DNA of 64,000 nt from Gemmata massiliana (GTDB lineage: Bacteria > Planctomycetota > Planctomycetia > Gemmatales > Gemmataceae): the NCBI RefSeq assembly GCF_901538265.1, contig NZ_LR593886.1, forward strand, positions 10,003,738 to 10,067,737, given 5' to 3'. The notes beneath the pieces are model-generated. The model searched no databases and was not told where the DNA came from. It worked only from the letters and a program-made list of their open reading frames with translations. Below, in pieces: positions 24,287 to 57,220 of the stretch. Numbering within the stretch: the first letter of the stretch is position 1; each line of letters begins with the position of its first letter. A program made the translations under genes and the position numbers.

Positions 24287-25056
24287 ATTTTCCTTAACTC
24301 ATTTCGCAGAAACGACTTTTGCGTAAGTTGCTAACATTTGCTGACAATTCCGGCCCGTGAGGGGCAGCAAAGGGATAAAAATACTTAATTCGCTGAGATT
24401 TTCAGGAATTTAGACATCCTTCAGCGCCTCGACCAATCCGCACAGCGACTAACATTTGCCAGCAGCTCGTACTCGTCGAGTCCGTGCGACCAACATGCAG
24501 ATCACGTTTCCGCACATAGTTGGTAACGGGACACCCGGCCTACACAATTATAGTGGACAAAATTACAAAAATCAACTCGATTGGTGCCCGCGTTCGGGTC
24601 ATTACTTCAAACAAACTCTGTAATCATCGCTCGTTCACGACACGAATATTCGCGCCTGTGTACCAACGAAGCCAACAATTAGGCCGGTGTTGTAATTGCG
24701 TTGTTCGCTGCAAACATCGTTGAACTGAGCAGTTAATGCGATCGTGACTTAAAATGATGCGTCGAACAATTTGTTGAAATATTTCGTGCTGGCGCCACGT
24801 ACCGCATTTTGAGCGCTGCTGCCTGTGCCCGTTTAAGCAGCGACTAGTTTCAACTCAATAGCTTCGTCTCACGACTAATAACAGACTTTATTGTCCAATA
24901 AAGTCTCTTTTTGCTTATTGGCCGACGCACGTACCTCGCGCCGGTCCCGATATCCGGTCGTCTGTTGGTCTTACGTATCGCTTCACAAAAACGGCAGGCG
25001 CCCGGAACAACGCGGCGAAGGGTTCCGCGTTTCCCCTCGTGACTGGAGGAGACCGT
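24287..25056. other. 770-base AT-rich non-coding interval with an orphan terminator
   Basis: No ORF here has a ribosome-binding site and family-like composition. The interval is clearly AT-richer than its flanks (24.29-24.93 kb). A similar CTAACATTTGC word occurs at about 24329 and 24448. At 24883-24906 an 11-bp hairpin AGACTTTATTG/CAATAAAGTCT is followed by CTTTTTG, a good terminator about 600 bases after the nearest upstream gene, so a non-coding transcript or long 3' region is possible. A short leader with GGAGGAG precedes the gene at 25057. Confidence 0.5.
24883..24906 (+). terminator. Orphan rho-independent terminator
   Basis: 11-bp perfect arms with a 2-base loop and following CTTTTTG; no annotated gene ends within 590 bases upstream. 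Confidence 0.7.
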
Positions 25057-26442
25057 ATGACGAGGTGCTTGACCTACGGCGTGCTCGCCACCGTGTCGGT
25101 CGCGCTCTGCTGGACCGCGCTCGTGCCGCTGCCGGCACCGGCCGGCGACAAGGCCCCCGAACTCCCTCAGACGAACCTACTCGGGCTGGCCTACCAGCCG
25201 CTACCCAAATGGGTACCGTTCGAGTCCAAGGACACCGTTCAGAAGTGGATCGACGAAAACGACACCAAAGCCATGACTGTACACGCCTGGCAACTGTGGG
25301 GCGGGTTGACCGAGATGGTCACGGAGAAAGTCGGTGGGGAGGAGCACCGGGTGCCACTGTTCGAGACGTGGTTCGATCCGGATCAGGTATTCGGCCCACC
25401 ACCACCGCCGGCGCAAAAACCCGAGCCCCGACAATTTAAGCGCCCCCGACAACTGTTCCGCACTCAACCCGGCCACCTCCGGTTACTCGCGGCCGAGGCC
25501 CCCACCCCTCCGCCCGCACCGGAGCCCGTCGACCCGATCAGCTTCCGCGCCGTTACCGTCAAGTACAACCGGGAGATGCGGGACCACGCGCAAGCGAACA
25601 AATACTACGACGGCGCGACCCTCCAGAAGATCAACGACGGTTGGGGGAAGACACCGATCGCCGACCGCAACCTGAAGCCCTATCCGGACCGAGCCGTCAT
25701 GCTGAAACCGGTCTTCCAGTTCATCAGCGGGACCGAGGCCACGCTCCTGCCGTACTGGGCCGGGCCGGACAAGCGCATCGACCAAACCAAGCCCCCGGGA
25801 CCGAACAACTGGAGCGAGAAAATGCTCATCATCCCGCCCGGGCAGCCGAAGGTCGCCATCCGGGGCATGCCGACCATCTCCCTGGACCGGTTCTATCACA
25901 TGAAGCTCACGGCCGCCGAGGTCGATTACCTGAACAAGAACTTCGGCCCATTCACCCCGCCGATCAGCGCGGGCGACTACGCGATCCTGACCGGGATGCA
26001 CGTTTCCACGCGCGAGATCGACAACTGGACGTGGCAAACGTTCTGGTGGTCGCTCAACAAGCCCGTGATCCCGGACGCCGTAAAATCGCGCATCCAACCG
26101 CCGTTCGACAACTACGAAACGCAGGTCGGGTACTCGTTCATGACCGGCCCGGCCGCGGGAGCCGCCAAGACCGATGGGAACCCGAACTCGCTTCCGCTGG
26201 TGTGCTACAACCCGTATTTGGAGGCAGGGTTCGGGAACAACGTTTTCGACCCGCCGTTCAAGAACCAGTTGGGAATTGAGTCCAACTGCATGAGTTGTCA
26301 CCGGGCCGCGGCGTGGCCCGGCTCCACCGCGCTCTACGTCTCCAACGGCTTGGTCAAACCGGGCGACCCGGTCTTCTTCACCGGGAACACGAAGGCCGAC
26401 TTCGTTTGGGGGCAAACGAACGTGAATCCGCCGAAGAAATGA
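25057..26442 (+). CDS. Exported mono-haem cytochrome-like protein
   Basis: A 461-residue protein with an N-terminal signal peptide (about 1-30, ending PAPAG) and one CMSCHRAA haem-binding site near the C-terminus (CxxCH at about residue 413). Between them are proline-rich segments (GPPPPPAQKPEP) and tryptophan-rich stretches (DNWTWQTFWWSLNKP) but no known cytochrome domain. It is probably periplasmic and covalently binds one haem. GGAGGAG seven bases before ATG 25057 supports that start. No maturation or partner gene is adjacent. Similar mono-haem proteins occur in planctomycetes, but the exact role is unknown. Confidence 0.7.
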   Translation: MTRCLTYGVLATVSVALCWTALVPLPAPAGDKAPELPQTNLLGLAYQPLPKWVPFESKDTVQKWIDENDTKAMTVHAWQLWGGLTEMVTEKVGGEEHRVPLFETWFDPDQVFGPPPPPAQKPEPRQFKRPRQLFRTQPGHLRLLAAEAPTPPPAPEPVDPISFRAVTVKYNREMRDHAQANKYYDGATLQKINDGWGKTPIADRNLKPYPDRAVMLKPVFQFISGTEATLLPYWAGPDKRIDQTKPPGPNNWSEKMLIIPPGQPKVAIRGMPTISLDRFYHMKLTAAEVDYLNKNFGPFTPPISAGDYAILTGMHVSTREIDNWTWQTFWWSLNKPVIPDAVKSRIQPPFDNYETQVGYSFMTGPAAGAAKTDGNPNSLPLVCYNPYLEAGFGNNVFDPPFKNQLGIESNCMSCHRAAAWPGSTALYVSNGLVKPGDPVFFTGNTKADFVWGQTNVNPPKK

Positions 26443-26491
26443 CCGACCCAGCCAGTACGTGATTCGCCCCGAAAAACACCTTCACCAAAAA

Positions 26492-29358: not shown

Positions 29359-30966
29359 TCACTCATCGAACAAGTACACGTCCACTGTTTCGCCCGACGC
29401 GATCTGCTCGCGCTCGGCCGCCACGAGCACGAACCCGTCGGCAACGACCGTGCTACTGAGATTCGACGCCCCGCTCGAAGCGACCGGTGCCACTCCTTGA
29501 CCCTCGCGCTTCACTCGAACGTAATCGACGCGCCCCGCCACCGATGCGACCGGCTGCGTCAGCGACAGCCCGATCTTCTTATAAGGAAGCTCCCACCCCA
29601 AACCGCCGAGCCGCCGGATGGCACGTCCCGCGAAGAGGTCGTAAGCACACAAGCACGAAACGGGGTTGCCGGGAAGCAGGAATACAGTTCGGCTAAACAA
29701 CCCCTCCCCAACCCCTCCCCCCTCTCCGCACTCCGGGCCTGTCAGCAGAGCTTCTCGCGGGCCAGAGTGCGGAGAGGGGCGTTCGGAAGAACCTACCCCC
29801 CTATCCCCCCTCCCTGAAGGGAAGGGGGAACAGGCGCGCGAAACCACTGAGATTGAGCTCGCGTCTAGCGACGGTTCTTTCTCCCCCTTCCCTTCAGGGA
29901 GGGAGGACGGGGGGGTAGGTTGTGGCTGTAACCCCTCCCCAACCCCTCCCCTAAACGGAGAGGGGCTTAATACGGGCACTGACAGATTTGTGTTTTCTGC
30001 ATTGGGTTCGGTTCTCCCTTCCTTTTTAGGGAAGGGGGTTAGGGGGTTAGGTTCCCTAACGAACCCCACTCCCAGCGGAGCCGCCGGGCGCAGTGACACG
30101 CCGTGTACTGCGAGTTCACCCAGTTCCGCCACCGCACGCGGCGCGTGATCCTCGACCCCGACGGACGTGCCGCCAGAACAGAGCACCACATCAGCAGCGG
30201 CAACGGCCGCGCGGATCGCATCGCAGACGGCCGGGTAGTCGTCGCGAACGTACTGCACGGGAAGCACGTCCGCGCCGTCGCGGGCCGCGAGCGCAGTCAA
30301 CATTGGCGAATTGCTATCAACGATCTTGAACCCTTCGGGCACAGAACCGGGGGGAAGCAGTTCATTCCCCGTAACAAGAATCGCCACGCGAGGTCGGCGC
30401 ACGACGCGCACCGTACCCACACCAATCGACGCGAGCACGCCCACGTCCTGTGGTCGGAGCCGGCGATCTGCGGGTAGCACTTCGCGCCCCCGCGTTACGT
30501 CTTCGCCAACGCGAACGATGTGCTTGCCCGCCGCCAGCACCGCACGCGGTAGCACGCGACCGTCCGGTTCGATCTGCGCGAACTCGGCCATCAGCACCGC
30601 ATCGACCCCAGTTGGGATCGGAGCGCCGGTCGTGATTCGCACGACTTGCCCGGGCGCCACCGTGCCAGCAAAAGGGCGCGCGGGAAGTGCTTCACCCACC
30701 ACCGCGAGCGGAACCGGAGCACCGGCAGTGTCAGCCGCGTGAAGAGCAAACCCGTCCATCGCCGCACGCAGAAAGCTCGGCACATCGACCGCGGACACAA
30801 CCGGCTCCGCAAGGACGCGACCGGCAGCGCTGAGTAGAGGCACGGCTTCGGACACAAGTACGGATGTGCGTTCTTCCAGGAGTGTCAGGACCGTGTCCAC
30901 GCTCGCGCGCTCGCGGAACCCGCGCATCCGCACATCGAAGAAGGGTGATTTCGCCGGTTCGGACAT
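29359..30966 (-). CDS. moeA: Molybdopterin molybdenumtransferase (MoeA) with in-frame repeat insertion
   Basis: A 535-residue MoeA, the enzyme that inserts molybdenum into adenylylated molybdopterin. Family motifs are SFLRAAMDGFA (65-74), ITTGAPIPTG (111-120), RVAILVTGNEL (193-203), SGGTSVGVEDH (264-274) and LPGNPVS (431-437). Without the extra segment the protein would be about 411 residues, the usual length. Residues about 303-426 are an insertion encoded by GC-rich palindromic repeats, exactly between SLRPAAPLGVGF and VFLLPGNP, a surface loop. The frame is kept open throughout, so the gene looks functional. Start 30966 has GGAG upstream. Confidence 0.9.
   Translation of the reverse strand: MSEPAKSPFFDVRMRGFRERASVDTVLTLLEERTSVLVSEAVPLLSAAGRVLAEPVVSAVDVPSFLRAAMDGFALHAADTAGAPVPLAVVGEALPARPFAGTVAPGQVVRITTGAPIPTGVDAVLMAEFAQIEPDGRVLPRAVLAAGKHIVRVGEDVTRGREVLPADRRLRPQDVGVLASIGVGTVRVVRRPRVAILVTGNELLPPGSVPEGFKIVDSNSPMLTALAARDGADVLPVQYVRDDYPAVCDAIRAAVAAADVVLCSGGTSVGVEDHAPRAVAELGELAVHGVSLRPAAPLGVGFVREPNPLTPFPKKEGRTEPNAENTNLSVPVLSPSPFRGGVGEGLQPQPTPPSSLPEGKGEKEPSLDASSISVVSRACSPFPSGRGDRGVGSSERPSPHSGPREALLTGPECGEGGGVGEGLFSRTVFLLPGNPVSCLCAYDLFAGRAIRRLGGLGWELPYKKIGLSLTQPVASVAGRVDYVRVKREGQGVAPVASSGASNLSSTVVADGFVLVAAEREQIASGETVDVYLFDE
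29698..30058. repeat. Cluster of palindromic coding elements inside moeA
   Basis: About 360 bases composed of adjacent palindromes. One has 15-bp arms at 29719-29733 and 29765-29779; the central unit (29789-29922) has arms of about 41 bases with few mismatches, beginning GAACCTACCCCCC and ending GGGGTAGGTT; two further imperfect ones lie at about 29930-29965 and 30005-30058. The central unit closely matches the element inside the RNase H gene at 33327-33467. The encoded peptide has proline-rich motifs such as LPEGKGE and SPFPSGRG. In-frame, no stop codons. Confidence 0.85.
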
Positions 30967-31239
30967 CCCAAAACGCTCCGTTGGCCGCATAATCCGCACA
31001 ATCGCACGCTTTTGCCAGACTTCGCAAATCATCGCCGCCCGCGCGACCCGCACAACCGCCCAGGTATTGCACGAATCAACCGGTTTTCATTCAAGCAATG
31101 AGTTGTGGGCACGCAAGTCGGCCCTACATTTGGATGTCAAGTACGTCAGCCGCGGTACACGCGCGGCTCGCGGGACGAACGCCCGCGTCCCCCTAACAAT
31201 GCGCACGGACAGCCGGTACCAACGACGGAGCGGCTAACT

Positions 31240-32137: not shown

Positions 32138-32806
32138 TTTCGCTTTTTCTTCCGCCGAACTGCCGCGCAGGTACAGCGGCTCCAGTGCGAATAGTTCGCC
32201 CTGCGTCAGTGCGGGAAGCTTCAAGCCCACCGCAAGAACACTTTCCACACGCGGCTCACGATCGGCTTCGGGCGCCCGGGTGTTCGCGGCCGGAATTTGT
32301 CCGTCGTAAGCACTCACACCGGGTCCGTTCACCATTTCACCCGCCACCAACCCCGCAACAAATTCCCCCGTTGTGAGAATCTGAAGTGAATTCTCGGGGA
32401 ACCAACCGTCGTGCCGCTTTGTGTACCGTTGTGCGTAAACCTGAGCCTGAAGCGCGTCCGCGATCACCCAGACGTGAGTCGCTTCGGCCGGCGATTGGTG
32501 CGCGATGGCTGCGAGCGTGTCGACCGCACGCAGTTCGCAGCCGGTCGCGTAGGCGAGCGCCTTCGCGGTCATCAGCCCCACACGCAGCCCGGTGTAGCTC
32601 CCAGGTCCGCGGCTCGCCATCACGCCGGTCAAGTCCCGCGGGCCGAGCGCTTCGGCTTTCAGCAGCGCATCAATGGTGGAAATCATGTCGCGTGCGTGCC
32701 GGCGCGACGAATCGAGTTCGGCGGCGCCGACAATCGCTCCCCCGCGCGCCAGTCCCACACGGGCGCCGCGGCCGGACGTTTCCAGGACGAGCCAACTTTC
32801 GTTCAT
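32123..32806 (-). CDS. tsaB: tRNA threonylcarbamoyladenosine biosynthesis protein TsaB
   Basis: A 227-residue ASKHA-fold protein needed, with TsaD and TsaE, for the t6A modification at position 37 of tRNAs reading ANN codons. Family motifs: WLVLETSG (5-12), SSRRHARDMI (about 33-42), the signature GVMASRGPGSYTGLRVGLMT (61-80) and ALAYATG. The C-terminal third is less conserved, as in other TsaB proteins. Its 3' end overlaps the terminator of the convergent lipoprotein gene. The RNase HI gene diverges from it. Confidence 0.9.
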   Translation of the reverse strand: MNESWLVLETSGRGARVGLARGGAIVGAAELDSSRRHARDMISTIDALLKAEALGPRDLTGVMASRGPGSYTGLRVGLMTAKALAYATGCELRAVDTLAAIAHQSPAEATHVWVIADALQAQVYAQRYTKRHDGWFPENSLQILTTGEFVAGLVAGEMVNGPGVSAYDGQIPAANTRAPEADREPRVESVLAVGLKLPALTQGELFALEPLYLRGSSAEEKAKEPRG

Positions 32807-32905
32807 TCGAGTTCGCCGCTACGGTGCTTTCCGGTGCGCGATACCATTCGCACAATGGGGGGAATTCTAGGCGGGCGAGCCGAGAGCGTAACCATTGAGG
32901 GTCCG

Positions 32906-33631
32906 ATGTCCGATACGGCCACCATGCACATCGACGGCGCGTCCCGCGGCAACCCGGGGCCGGCGGCCTACGCCGTGGTCCTCGCGCGCCCGGGGATGCC
33001 CGTCGTCGAAGAAGCGGACACCATCGGCACCGCGTCGAACAACGTGGCGGAATACACCGCGCTGGTCGAGGGGTTGGGGCTCGCGGTTGAACTGGGCGTG
33101 AAGAAACTGAACGTGTTCAGCGACAGCGAGCTGATGGTGAAGCAGATGAGCGGCGCGTACAAGGTCAAGAACGAAGACCTGCGCCCGCTGTACGAAGAAG
33201 CGTGCCAGCTCCGCCGGCAGTTCGAGCAGATCACCATCACGCACGTGCGCCGTGAACAGAATACCCGCGCGGACGCCATCGGCAACGACGCCCTCGACGG
33301 CCGGCCGCGGAAGCGAGGCGCACAAGGAGAACCTACCCCCCCGGCCCCCCTCCCTAAAGGGAAGGGGGAGCAGGCGCGCGATCTCTTTGCAGCTGAAGCG
33401 CCATTATTTGACCTCGAAGCGCCAAACTCCCCCTTCCCTTCAGGGAGGGGAGCCGGAGGGGTAGGTCTCTCAGATGCCCCCATTCGCGAAGACGCGATTC
33501 GGTGCCTCGCGGACGCGGCCCAACACTGGGCCACGAACGGGCTGAAGGGACTTCCGCCGGAGGCGGTGTGGGAACAGTTGTGGTCACTGTTAGACGAAGC
33601 GGGTGTGCTGAAAAAGAAAAAGGCGAAGTGA
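32906..33631 (+). CDS. Ribonuclease HI family protein with in-frame repeat insertion
   Basis: A 241-residue protein. The RNase HI core covers residues 5-133 with catalytic acidic residues Asp 10 (HIDGASRGNPG), Glu 49 (NVAEYTAL), Asp 73 (FSDSELMV) and Asp 123 (NTRADAIGN); the His of classic RNase HI has no clear equivalent. It would cleave RNA in RNA/DNA hybrids. Residues about 141-188 are an insertion coded by a palindromic repeat of the same family as in moeA. A helical C-terminal tail (191-241) follows. ATG 32906 has GAGGG upstream. The next gene begins two bases after its stop, suggesting co-transcription. Confidence 0.85.
   Translation: MSDTATMHIDGASRGNPGPAAYAVVLARPGMPVVEEADTIGTASNNVAEYTALVEGLGLAVELGVKKLNVFSDSELMVKQMSGAYKVKNEDLRPLYEEACQLRRQFEQITITHVRREQNTRADAIGNDALDGRPRKRGAQGEPTPPAPLPKGKGEQARDLFAAEAPLFDLEAPNSPFPSGRGAGGVGLSDAPIREDAIRCLADAAQHWATNGLKGLPPEAVWEQLWSLLDEAGVLKKKKAK
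33327..33467. repeat. Palindromic coding element inside the RNase H gene
   Basis: About 140 bases: a left arm beginning GAACCTACCCCCC and a right arm ending GGGGTAGGTC pair imperfectly over about 40 bases around a central segment. Both arms match the central element in moeA (29789-29922). The element is in frame, encoding LPKGKGEQ and SPFPSGRGAGGVG. Confidence 0.85.
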
Positions 33632-38979: not shown

Positions 38980-39159
38980 TGCGCAGAACTCAATAAGTGG
39001 ATGATTCCGCGGGCTAATTAAACATACCGTTTCTCCGCGCTCGTTGCTGCCCCATTTGCGTTTAGGACCGCTGAGAGCGCTGTGGTAACGAAGCGCAACC
39101 CCAAAAACCAGTGGTACAGCGTGGCTGGTGCGTGCGAGGATGTTATGGGCTGATTTGAC

Positions 39160-39849
39160 GTGCAGCAACCAGATGCCTCAACCGCCCCGGCACACCTCAC
39201 TCAGTCGAGATTTGGAATGCAGCCGCGCACTCGCCGCTGGATCACCCCGACCGTGTGGGCCGTGGCTCTGTCCGTTGGAGCCGGGTACTCCTATGCCCGG
39301 TACGCAGGCGTGAAAACAACGGTTGATCGGGCACTTTCGGCTCGCCCTGGTCTGACCCACATTGACCTCACCCACCCGGGATCGGTCACCACTCCGATCC
39401 CGCAAAGCCCTGGCGTCCACCCGCACAGTGTGGCCTTCTATCTGAAACTCGAAGGCAGTAAGTCGTCAGGCAAGACGCACCGACTCAAGGGATTGCGCGG
39501 TTCGATAACGCTAACGGATGATTCGGGCGGGGTTGTGGAACTCCGGCAATTTGATGAGAGTATGAGTTCCGCGATCGAGAACGGCGATTTGTGCGATCTC
39601 GGGTTCTCACCCCCGGTGCCCGGCGGCGGATACACAATGACGGTCACAATCGAGAGCGGTGCCTCCGCCACGGAAGCAGCCCGAGCCACCGTCTACGGTC
39701 GATACATGGTTTGCGAAATGGAAATGTTCCCCGCACTGGAGTGGCTACTGCTGACCTATTCTGCCGGTGGACCCGCGCTCGTGTTCTGGCTCATAGCCAT
39801 CGGTCGCGTTATCCGAACCCCAGTCCCTGTCTCTATCGATCAAGCGTAG
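39160..39849 (+). CDS. Membrane protein with one N-terminal and one C-terminal span
   Basis: A 229-residue protein from GTG 39160 (an alternative ATG at 39217 would remove 19 residues). A span at about 28-46 (WITPTVWAVALSVGAGYSYA), a long extracytoplasmic region with beta-like segments and a second span at about 193-216 (WLLLTYSAGGPALVFWLIAI) are visible. It diverges from the PSD1 gene across about 180 bases. Function unknown. Confidence 0.5.
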   Translation: MQQPDASTAPAHLTQSRFGMQPRTRRWITPTVWAVALSVGAGYSYARYAGVKTTVDRALSARPGLTHIDLTHPGSVTTPIPQSPGVHPHSVAFYLKLEGSKSSGKTHRLKGLRGSITLTDDSGGVVELRQFDESMSSAIENGDLCDLGFSPPVPGGGYTMTVTIESGASATEAARATVYGRYMVCEMEMFPALEWLLLTYSAGGPALVFWLIAIGRVIRTPVPVSIDQA

Positions 39850-39889
39850 GAAAGTCGCGGAAAGTGCCGTTACCGTGGCCGGCTAATTG

Positions 39890-56038: not shown

Positions 56039-57220
56039 TCAGTTGCTGATGCGACACTTCGGCAGCGCAGTCCGAAATTCCTTTCGGCCCATCGCCGTCA
56101 CTTTCGTGCTGCCCAGTTCCAGTTCGGTCAGATTCTTGAGCGCCGTCAGTTCTTTCAAACCTGCGTCTGTTATCTCGGTACCGTCGAGGTCAAGGTGAAC
56201 GAGGTGCGAGAGTTTCGCTACGTCTTTTAACCCCGCGTCCGTCACCTTCGTGCCGGTCAGTCCCAGGTGCGTGAACTTTTTGAGCGCGGCCAGTTCCTTA
56301 AAACTCGTTCCCGTCACGCCCGTGTGAGTCAGGTCGAGGTGGCTCAGATCCTTGAGAGCAGCCAGTTCCTTGAGCCCCGCGTCGGTCACCTTCGTACTGC
56401 GCAAGTTAAGGTGCGTCAGCGTCGTCAAACTGGCCACGTCCCTCAATCCCGCGTCCGATACTTCCGTGTTGATGACGTTCAGCCGAGTCAGGCGCTTGAA
56501 CCCTGTCAATTCTCTCAGCCCCGGTCCCGCCACCTTCGTGCTGCTCAGATCGAGGTGTACCAAGCCTTTGAACTCCGCCAATTCTTTCAAATCCGCGTCC
56601 GTTACTCCCGTTTGGTGCAGGTCCAGGTGAGCGAGGTCGAGCGCCGCGAGTTCCTTCAGTCCGGCCCCGGTCACCTTCGTGTTGTCCAGTTCGAGGTAAG
56701 CGAGATTTTTGAGGACCGCAACTTCCTTGAGCCCCGCGTCCGTGATTTTCGTGCCGCCCAGATAAAGGTGAGTCAAGTTCTTGAGTGCAGTCAGCTCTTT
56801 AAGCCCTACGTCCGTTGTCGCCGTGAATTCGAGGTGAAGGTGGGTCAGAAGTTTGAAGCCCGCCACTTCTTTTAGCCCCTGGTTCGTCACCTGTTTGGAG
56901 GCGCTCAAACGGAGCACGGTGAGGTTCTCGAGAACGGCCAGATCCTTGAGCCCGGTCCCCGTCACACCCGTGTTACTCAAATCGAGAAGTGTGAGGCTTT
57001 TAAGAGAGGACAGCTCTTTCAGCCCCACGTCCGTTATCTCCTTACCCGCCAGGGTGACGGCAATAACCGGTTTGCTGTCACGTTTGTTGTCGCACACAAC
57101 CGCGCCGCCCATCCGCAAAACGAACGCGACGGCCGCACGCTCGGTGTCGTCGGCTCGAACCGGAGCAGCGGAAGCCAAAGCGAACCACAAAGCGCCCCCG
57201 CACAGTAGCGACCGTGACAT
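56039..57220 (-). CDS. Exported leucine-rich repeat protein
   Basis: A 393-residue protein with a signal peptide (about 1-23, ending PVRA) followed by about 13 consecutive 24-residue leucine-rich repeats of the type LTHLxLxxTKVTDAGLKELAALKN. The regular repeat gives a curved solenoid likely exported to the periplasm or cell surface and binding a protein partner. Repeats are close to one another in sequence, so they arose by recent duplication. It ends KCRISN. Start 57220 has AAGGGGA upstream and the signal peptide. Its partner is unknown. Confidence 0.85.
   Translation of the reverse strand: MSRSLLCGGALWFALASAAPVRADDTERAAVAFVLRMGGAVVCDNKRDSKPVIAVTLAGKEITDVGLKELSSLKSLTLLDLSNTGVTGTGLKDLAVLENLTVLRLSASKQVTNQGLKEVAGFKLLTHLHLEFTATTDVGLKELTALKNLTHLYLGGTKITDAGLKEVAVLKNLAYLELDNTKVTGAGLKELAALDLAHLDLHQTGVTDADLKELAEFKGLVHLDLSSTKVAGPGLRELTGFKRLTRLNVINTEVSDAGLRDVASLTTLTHLNLRSTKVTDAGLKELAALKDLSHLDLTHTGVTGTSFKELAALKKFTHLGLTGTKVTDAGLKDVAKLSHLVHLDLDGTEITDAGLKELTALKNLTELELGSTKVTAMGRKEFRTALPKCRISN

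Follow-up and report, generated by a model that had tools for sequence, protein, structure and literature searches.

The moeA gene in the stretch of DNA analysed here (64,000 nt of a 10.1-Mb, single-contig genome, G000; the stretch is called the window below) encodes a protein that is longer than its relatives by a segment of strongly palindromic DNA. This raised the question of what the additional DNA is, whether it belongs to a family of repeats that can enter genes without closing their reading frames, and what becomes of such a segment in related species.

A palindromic insert in frame within moeA

The features of the locus, with positions in the window, are as follows.

29359..31053, minus strand: moeA, molybdopterin molybdenumtransferase, 564 aa, the host gene
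29695..30054, minus strand: insertion of ~120 codons at a predicted beta-hairpin tip, directly ahead of the LPGNPVS motif
29699..29781, plus strand: half type C unit, the apex of its hairpin carrying a type D hairpin (loop TGTCAGCAGAGCTTCTCGC)
29791..29921, plus strand: type B unit of 131 nt, with inverted ~40-nt arms and a variable core; reads PTPPSSLPEGKGE..SPFPSGRGDRGVG
29922..29929, plus strand: B-C linker GTGGCTGT, 8 nt, which recurs in other B-C pairs
29930..30053, plus strand: type C unit of 124 nt, with hairpins close to both ends and a variable core; antisense moeA reading PNPLTPFPKKEG..SPSPFRGGVGEGL
33331..33466, plus strand: second type B unit of the window, which lies in frame within the C-terminal region of an RNase HI-like ORF (32411-33631)

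The Pfam domains MoeA_N, MoCF_biosynth and MoeA_C were all detected in the 564-aa ORF, and the MoCF match ended at profile position 109 of 144, which is the start of the insert. The spacing between the GGTSVG and LPGNPVS motifs was 166 residues in G000, compared to 45 to 47 residues in 13 uninterrupted MoeA proteins ranging from the genus to the class, and hence G000 MoeA has a surplus of ~120 residues, or 360 nt. A sequence-only reading of this DNA had placed an in-frame palindromic array between two conserved segments of MoeA, and both the placement and the palindromic nature of the insert were borne out. Arms of 59 nt were 80% complementary and arms of 21 nt were 90% complementary, and the inverted-repeat score of the loop was 36, with the highest of 100 dinucleotide shuffles scoring 21.

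Additional residues were present at this position in other members of the genus, with 58 in G009, 34 in G008, 28 in G001, 27 in both G013 and G014, 19 in G012 and 14 in G016. Motif spacing indicated that MoeA has no insertion in G006, G015, G017 and G018, and the small gaps between matched segments in G002, G004, G005 and G011 indicated that it is absent there too. The MoeA proteins of more distant planctomycetes also lacked the insertion, so that this check, which the sequence-only reading had named as able to refute it, came out in its favour. A single ancient insertion common to all MoeA proteins was therefore rejected, as neither the distant planctomycetes nor several genus members carry one. 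An assembly error, which the sequence-only reading had named as a danger to its claim, is unlikely because the G000 genome is one contig and other assemblies have related insertions at this site.

An AlphaFold2 model of MoeA was built from an alignment of 20 MoeA sequences taken from the window and fetched loci. The mean pLDDT was 76.5, with values of <50 for residues 339 to 450, and this low-confidence segment was flanked by strands at 328 to 333 and 454 to 459. The insert is thus predicted to be a disordered chain on the tip of a beta-hairpin, and the model is consistent with a surface-loop placement, which the sequence-only reading had put forward as a point to check. On the solved MoeA structure 2nqq, which we take to be that of E. 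coli MoeA, the insertion site fell between residues 288 and 296, just N-terminal of LPGNPVS. An Rfam search of window positions 29600 to 30150 detected no family at gathering score, so that a known RNA family was rejected as the identity of the array; the sub-threshold matches were to microRNA families, which is what strong hairpins tend to yield.

Anatomy of the palindromic units

The sequence-only reading had described a repeat unit at 29789-29922. Palindromic repeats were indeed present there, but the array was not made of one 134-nt unit; it consisted of a B unit, the 8-nt linker and a C unit, with a half-C unit carrying a nested hairpin on the other side of B. The first 22 nt of this half-C unit repeat the beginning of the C unit in direct orientation. 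The layout of B (~131 nt) was AACCTACC..CCCTGAAGGGAAGGGGG, a variable core of ~50 nt and an inverse arm ending GGTAGGTT, and in C (~124 nt) one hairpin followed AACCCCTCCCCAACCCC and another, beyond a variable core, ended GGGGGTTAGGGGGTTAGGTT. Lengths across the genomic copies were 129 to 137 nt for B and 121 to 126 nt for C, with consensus ends of ACCTACC..GGTAGGTT and AACCCCTCC..GTTAGGTT, respectively. The arms of both units were strongly conserved across copies and the cores were variable, and B and C were frequently joined through GTGGCTGT.

The ends of the units were compared with those of known repeat classes. REPs carry GTAG directly 5' of the hairpin, and those of the GTAG super-family are hairpins of 20 to 40 bp with GTAG at one end. 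The B arms ended GGGGTAGGTT, in which GTAG was present and a G-rich stretch lay between GTAG and the hairpin; GTAG was absent from the C unit. The motif CGTC occurred within the B arm of a subset of copies, at positions 13-14, which vary, and was not terminal in the B or C consensus. Terminal inverted repeats, by which MITEs are recognised, were found in B only (arms of ~40 nt), the two ends of C being different from each other.

In G009, the moeA insert contained the C part with a D hairpin at a different apex, and B was absent. Inspection by eye of type D hairpins (29719-29779 of the window; L059, L068, L072 and L075; and the G009 moeA locus L010) showed a conserved loop, GCGAGAAGCTCYGCTGACA, and stems that varied yet stayed complementary, with D sitting at the apex of other hairpins.

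Dispersal of the repeats

The sequence-only reading had made the existence of a mobile repeat family conditional on copies elsewhere, and these were abundant. With the 361-nt moeA insert as a query, at least 114 matched stretches were detected in G000 (40 of 132 candidates scored). A B-arm pattern of 21 nt, with two mismatches allowed, gave 121 matches in G000 and none with a reversed control. Matches to this pattern were found in 13 of 41 relatives, every one of them in the genus, and in 20 of 297 genomes in a class-wide sample, 11 of them in the genus and nine outside it, so that B was rejected as a genus-restricted family. Outside the genus, four genomes in two other families had 6 to 49 matches and five more had 1 to 3. 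B-like units were also present in loci of MAGs whose titles name Singulisphaera and Planctomycetota. The four genomes with 6 to 49 matches were G092, G134, G179 and G195; other genomes from outside the genus had none or stray matches, which is a patchy spread.

Two further palindrome families, F and H, were similarly dispersed, each having matches in 17 of 19 genus genomes, with 1 to 216 matches per genome for F and 1 to 611 for H. The 611 H arm matches (GCTCCCTGACGGTCGCGGCTC, two mismatches allowed) were in G003, a 7.5-Mb draft.

In-frame occurrence inside G000 genes

Forty-two clusters of elements were scored, of which 40 came from 39 fetched loci and two from the window, using a hexamer coding score that was trained on 101 ORFs and applied to both flanks of each cluster. 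The query was an in-gene sequence and the clusters were its best matches, which is a mild bias. The best strand and frame agreed across both flanks in 25 of the 42 clusters, some of them (L083, L087, L075 and the window) on weak flank scores, and in all 25 the element was open, with no stop codon. The flanks agreed in strand and differed in frame in four clusters (L060, L067, L076 and L096), which could be either separate genes or frameshifts. The best strands differed in the remaining 13, among which the copy in the RNase HI-like ORF was counted although the protein continues beyond the copy in G012.

One standard frame was used by 31 of 36 units in the 25 host genes (B, 16 of 18; C, 15 of 18). 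The standard reading of B was PTPPSPLPEGKGE..SPFPSGRGDGGVG, in either orientation, and that of C was PNPLTPFPKKEGG..LSPSPFRGGVGEGL, antisense. Host proteins with Pfam matches included RNB (RNase R), RarA/MgsA, SelB, PP-loop, class-V aminotransferase, QueG, FAD oxidase, SF1-type helicase, PNKP ligase, Kdo transferase, chalcone synthase and ABC ATPases; 2 of the 24 hosts other than MoeA had no Pfam match.

The frame was intact in 16 of 17 full-length B units in genes and in 6 of 10 elsewhere (P = 0.047, Fisher test), compared to 12 of 13 and 8 of 10, respectively, for full-length C units (P = 0.56, not significant); the RNase HI unit and units of <115 nt were left out of both tests. The contrast between gene and nongene copies was thus marginal for B and absent for C. 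Because copies outside genes were often frame intact, B and C are coding competent in themselves.

Orthologous sites in two relatives

Regions orthologous to 20 in-gene sites, with flanks 81 to 98% identical, were obtained from G012 and G009; these were 20 of the 22 flank sites, with L065 and L089 left out. A cassette was present at all 20 sites in G012 and at all 19 readable sites in G009 (the right flank of the L077 site is missing there), often with different content. All 20 sites in G012 were in frame and stop free, and 14 of the 20 cassettes exceeded all 50 shuffles for inverted repeats. Module labels, which are coarse, differed between G012 and G000 at 18 sites and agreed at two (L091 and L097). 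At least one label was common to both genomes at 13 sites and none at seven; cassette turnover was therefore often partial, as these 13 G012 sites keep at least one G000 module label. Families unrelated to B and C were detected at two G012 sites, F in L095 and E in RNase R.

Only 4 of the 20 sites in G009 were open and in frame, and the RNase R and RarA loops were frameshifted. The fetched G009 sequences contained N gaps and shortened homopolymers, and the frame counts for this genome were set aside for this reason. A paper on Gemmata massiliana describes 454 sequencing and 22 scaffolds (PMC4672568), and G009 is presumably the strain described in it. We attribute the frame breaks to a putative combination of 454 homopolymer errors and N gaps. 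The loci L151 and L168 and the G009 regions L105 and L117 were frameshifted or N filled at repeats, and the G009 gene calls there are probably split.

Overall, this comparison and the survey of the genus below went beyond the sequence-only reading, in that the palindrome family occupying a given loop was found to differ between relatives, in other enzymes as well as in MoeA, with the frame mostly kept.

Loops of RNase R, RarA and MoeA across the genus

The RNase R loop was in frame in 15 of 16 species in which it was readable and the RarA loop in 13 of 14, the exception in both cases being G009, which was excluded from loop scoring for these two proteins. Rows were dropped for RNase R of G014 (matched, sequence not included), G015 and G018 (one flank missing) and for RarA of G018 and G006 (one flank missing); no RarA match was present in G010, G011 or G017. 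Short RNase R loops were found in G011 and G017, two genomes in which B and F are without matches and H has one at most, and short RarA loops with no palindrome were found in G002, G013 and G016. Among loops of at least 54 nt, the inverted-repeat score was above all 100 shuffles in 12 of 13 for RNase R, 10 of 10 for RarA and 5 of 8 for MoeA; expressed per in-frame species loop, significant palindromes were present in 12 of 15 for RNase R and 10 of 13 for RarA.

Permissive single-link clustering separated the loops into at least six sequence clusters for RNase R, at least five for RarA and three for MoeA. The palindrome loop was the only internal region varying by at least six residues in RNase R (15 species) and RarA (13 species), G009 being excluded; in MoeA (12 genus members, G009 being kept) there was one other variable internal region, of 0 to 7 residues. 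The positions taken by unrelated families differed by no more than a few codons, and the RNase R cassette of G007 was chimeric, its left end being of type C and its right end of type B. A FastTree phylogeny of the conserved parts was obtained for 15 species, without G009 and G011; its root was chosen by hand and several nodes were weak. The sister pairs G000/G012 and G005/G008 had support of 0.999 and 1.000, respectively, and both pairs were split between different RNase R loop clusters.

Concerted change of the two arms

Within the 25 full-length B units of G000, the identity between the two arms of the same unit was 0.947, compared to 0.925 ± 0.004 when arms were permuted, and none of 20,000 permutations reached the observed value. 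A similar excess was detected for the six B units of G012 (0.903 versus 0.855; P = 0.02), and the four units of G009 gave a P value of 0.08; these comparisons covered full-length units of at most 150 nt that were free of N. Furthermore, at the RNase HI site the core was similar in G000 and G012 and both arms had changed in matching fashion. Template switching is described as homogenising inverted-repeat arms in yeast genes (PMC8604942), and arm complementarity in the present units is most likely kept by polymerase template switching of this kind (quasi-palindrome correction). The co-variation could in part also come from subfamilies whose founders were already matched in their arms.

Explanations for the inserts

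We consider it probable that B and C are nonautonomous palindromic repeats that act in a manner similar to that of the Rickettsia palindromic elements (RPEs) and occupy persistent docking sites in loops, where cassettes turn over rapidly in place. According to this explanation, B and C, and other families in relatives, would insert both within and between genes, and an insertion within a gene would survive only if the frame stays open and the site is a surface loop that tolerates a disordered peptide. An occupied loop would then remain a docking site, at which the cassette may be swapped by a new or nested insertion, by deletion or by recombination between similar arms, with selection keeping only in-frame outcomes. 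Template switching between arms would keep them complementary, and the peptide would be translated and tolerated rather than used. No clean pair of filled and empty sites was found between close relatives, and a search of the junctions by eye gave no convincing target-site duplication. As there was neither such a pair nor an established duplication, and as no transposase was identified, we infer the movement of the elements indirectly. Among the B arms listed for G000, no transposon-like spacing, as would mark an autonomous element, was noticed by eye.

A possible but rather unlikely alternative is that replacement is directed by the palindromes themselves, such that a resident hairpin attracts the next element at or near its apex, beyond what chance insertion would give, and the old arms are then lost. 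The D hairpins at C hairpin apexes in the window, in G009 moeA and in L059, L068, L072 and L075, the G-type hairpins inside B arms in G012, the chimeric C/B cassette of G007 RNase R, the unbroken occupancy of the readable G012 and G009 sites and the positioning of unrelated families within a few codons of one another are all in keeping with such a process. The nested hairpins and the C/B chimera, in particular, hint at exchange directed by the resident palindrome rather than at chance insertion into a tolerant loop. However, nesting was judged by eye; one site per protein is also expected from loop tolerance alone; and the short, palindrome-free RarA loops of G002, G013 and G016 indicate that occupancy is not universal. 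In its general form, in which a hairpin-occupied loop is the preferred target, unrelated palindrome families swap, and the slot is inherited while its content is species specific, framed by selection and made symmetric by template switching, this proposal is likewise rather unlikely.

A classical REP/BIME origin, in which GTAG-tagged hairpins are moved by a RAYT (Y1) transposase, some of them into genes, is very unlikely for B and C. The paired inverted hairpins and linkers resemble REP dimers, a Y1 match was obtained in 33 of the 41 genomes searched, and intragenic in-frame REPs are described in several species, with GTAG ones most frequent in O. terrae, which belongs to the same superphylum (PMC3733652). 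In contrast, G000 had no PF01797 match despite its 121 B-arm matches, G005 had 11 Y1 matches and no B arm, Y1 and B-arm counts disagreed across genomes, and the C unit has no GTAG. Moreover, when 20 Y1 loci, picked from genus members listed with Y1 matches, were scanned for the arms of 11 families, the only match was an H arm in G003, a genome with 611 H matches, and B or C arms were found at none of the 20. Mobilisation of B and C by RAYT was rejected on the absence of PF01797 from G000, the mismatch in counts and the result for the 20 loci, and the REP/BIME reading is largely refuted for these units in G000. Several Y1 genes had their own long flanking inverted repeats.

Genus Y1/RAYT genes with such flanking repeats were those of L178, L182, L184, L187, L190 and L192, and in L182 and L192 GTAG lay beside a CCAGGGGT hairpin. 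The loci of this L178-L192 set are probably REPtron-like units unrelated to B and C.

It is also highly improbable that the inserts are functional and positively selected, as regulatory mRNA hairpins or useful disordered linkers: the same loop is occupied repeatedly across species, but sister species differ in the family, length and peptide of their inserts, the hosts have no evident common function and insert-free orthologues exist within the genus. Removal of the inserts from RNA, or bypass by ribosomes, to give a normal protein is suggested by strong hairpins at positions common to species and deserves almost no credence, as it would make stops and frameshifts free, yet 25 of 25 same-frame sites in G000 were stop free and 20 of 20 sites in G012 were open and in frame, and Rfam gave no family at gathering score for window positions 29600 to 30150.

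Comparison with known systems

The explanation based on RPE-like elements in reused loops was compared with described systems. RPEs are palindromes of ~100 to 150 bp, with several families per genome, which lie in frame in unrelated protein genes and add a peptide (PMC2229807 and PMC10969869), and those of R. conorii are reported to end in CGTC (PMC3733652). The present repeats were similar in size (B, 129 to 137 nt; C, 121 to 126 nt), in their dispersal, in the number of families and in their in-frame insertion into many unrelated protein genes (25 of 42 clusters). They differed in phylum and sequence, in having no terminal CGTC in B or C, and, as it seems, in the replacement of one unrelated family by another in the same loop between species. 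The likeness to RPEs drawn by the sequence-only reading was thus supported with respect to how the elements work, as in-frame coding palindromes, and membership of B and C in the RPE family was not supported.

The intragenic GTAG/CGTC REPs are likewise hairpin repeats, single or dimeric, within coding genes (PMC3733652), whereas the present units are of ~130 nt, with 40-nt arms in B, and occur in a genome with no Y1 match. The closest and direct precedent for loop reuse is the presence of different REPs at approximately the same recB site in two Xanthomonas species, as described in PMC3733652; in contrast to that single gene, different cassettes were found at the same place at most of the sites tested here. 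This source covers REPs of Planctomycetes, and the word Gemmata is absent from it. Bacterial MITEs such as ERIC, Correia, RUP and Nezha resemble the present repeats in size, inverted ends (B), dispersed copies and open frames, as described in PMC2229807, but no target-site duplication was established here and no parental insertion sequence was found in a search limited to Y1 transposases. Long inverted repeats in translated genes are also described in Nematomorpha mitochondria (PMC6649704); the arms of those palindromes encode conserved protein regions, unlike the Gemmata ones, which are added, dispersed loop inserts.

Coding palindromes (RPEs) and intragenic REPs are therefore already established. 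No description of the B or C elements was found in the accessible text of the open-licence literature on Planctomycetes, coding or intragenic palindromes and template switching, and the open-licence papers searched yielded no account of unrelated families systematically reusing a single loop in each protein. Within a single bacterial genus, many pairs of orthologous genes have nearly unchanged flanks around cassettes that differ, so that movement of repeats with no obvious transposase, reuse of one loop per protein and concerted evolution of inverted arms can be tested there. For annotators, proline/glycine-rich stretches such as PTPPSPLPEGKGE and PNPLTPFPKKEGG in planctomycete proteins are repeat derived.

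Other features of the window

Three further differences in length from the syntenic G009 sequence were observed in the window. Tandem 72-nt repeats at 56099-57066, with a period of 24 residues, are perhaps leucine-rich repeats, and the syntenic stretch in G009 was ~30 nt, compared to ~1,350 nt here. The stretches at 24357-26491 and 39079-39889 were ~1.8 kb and 0.7 kb longer, respectively, than their syntenic counterparts in G009.
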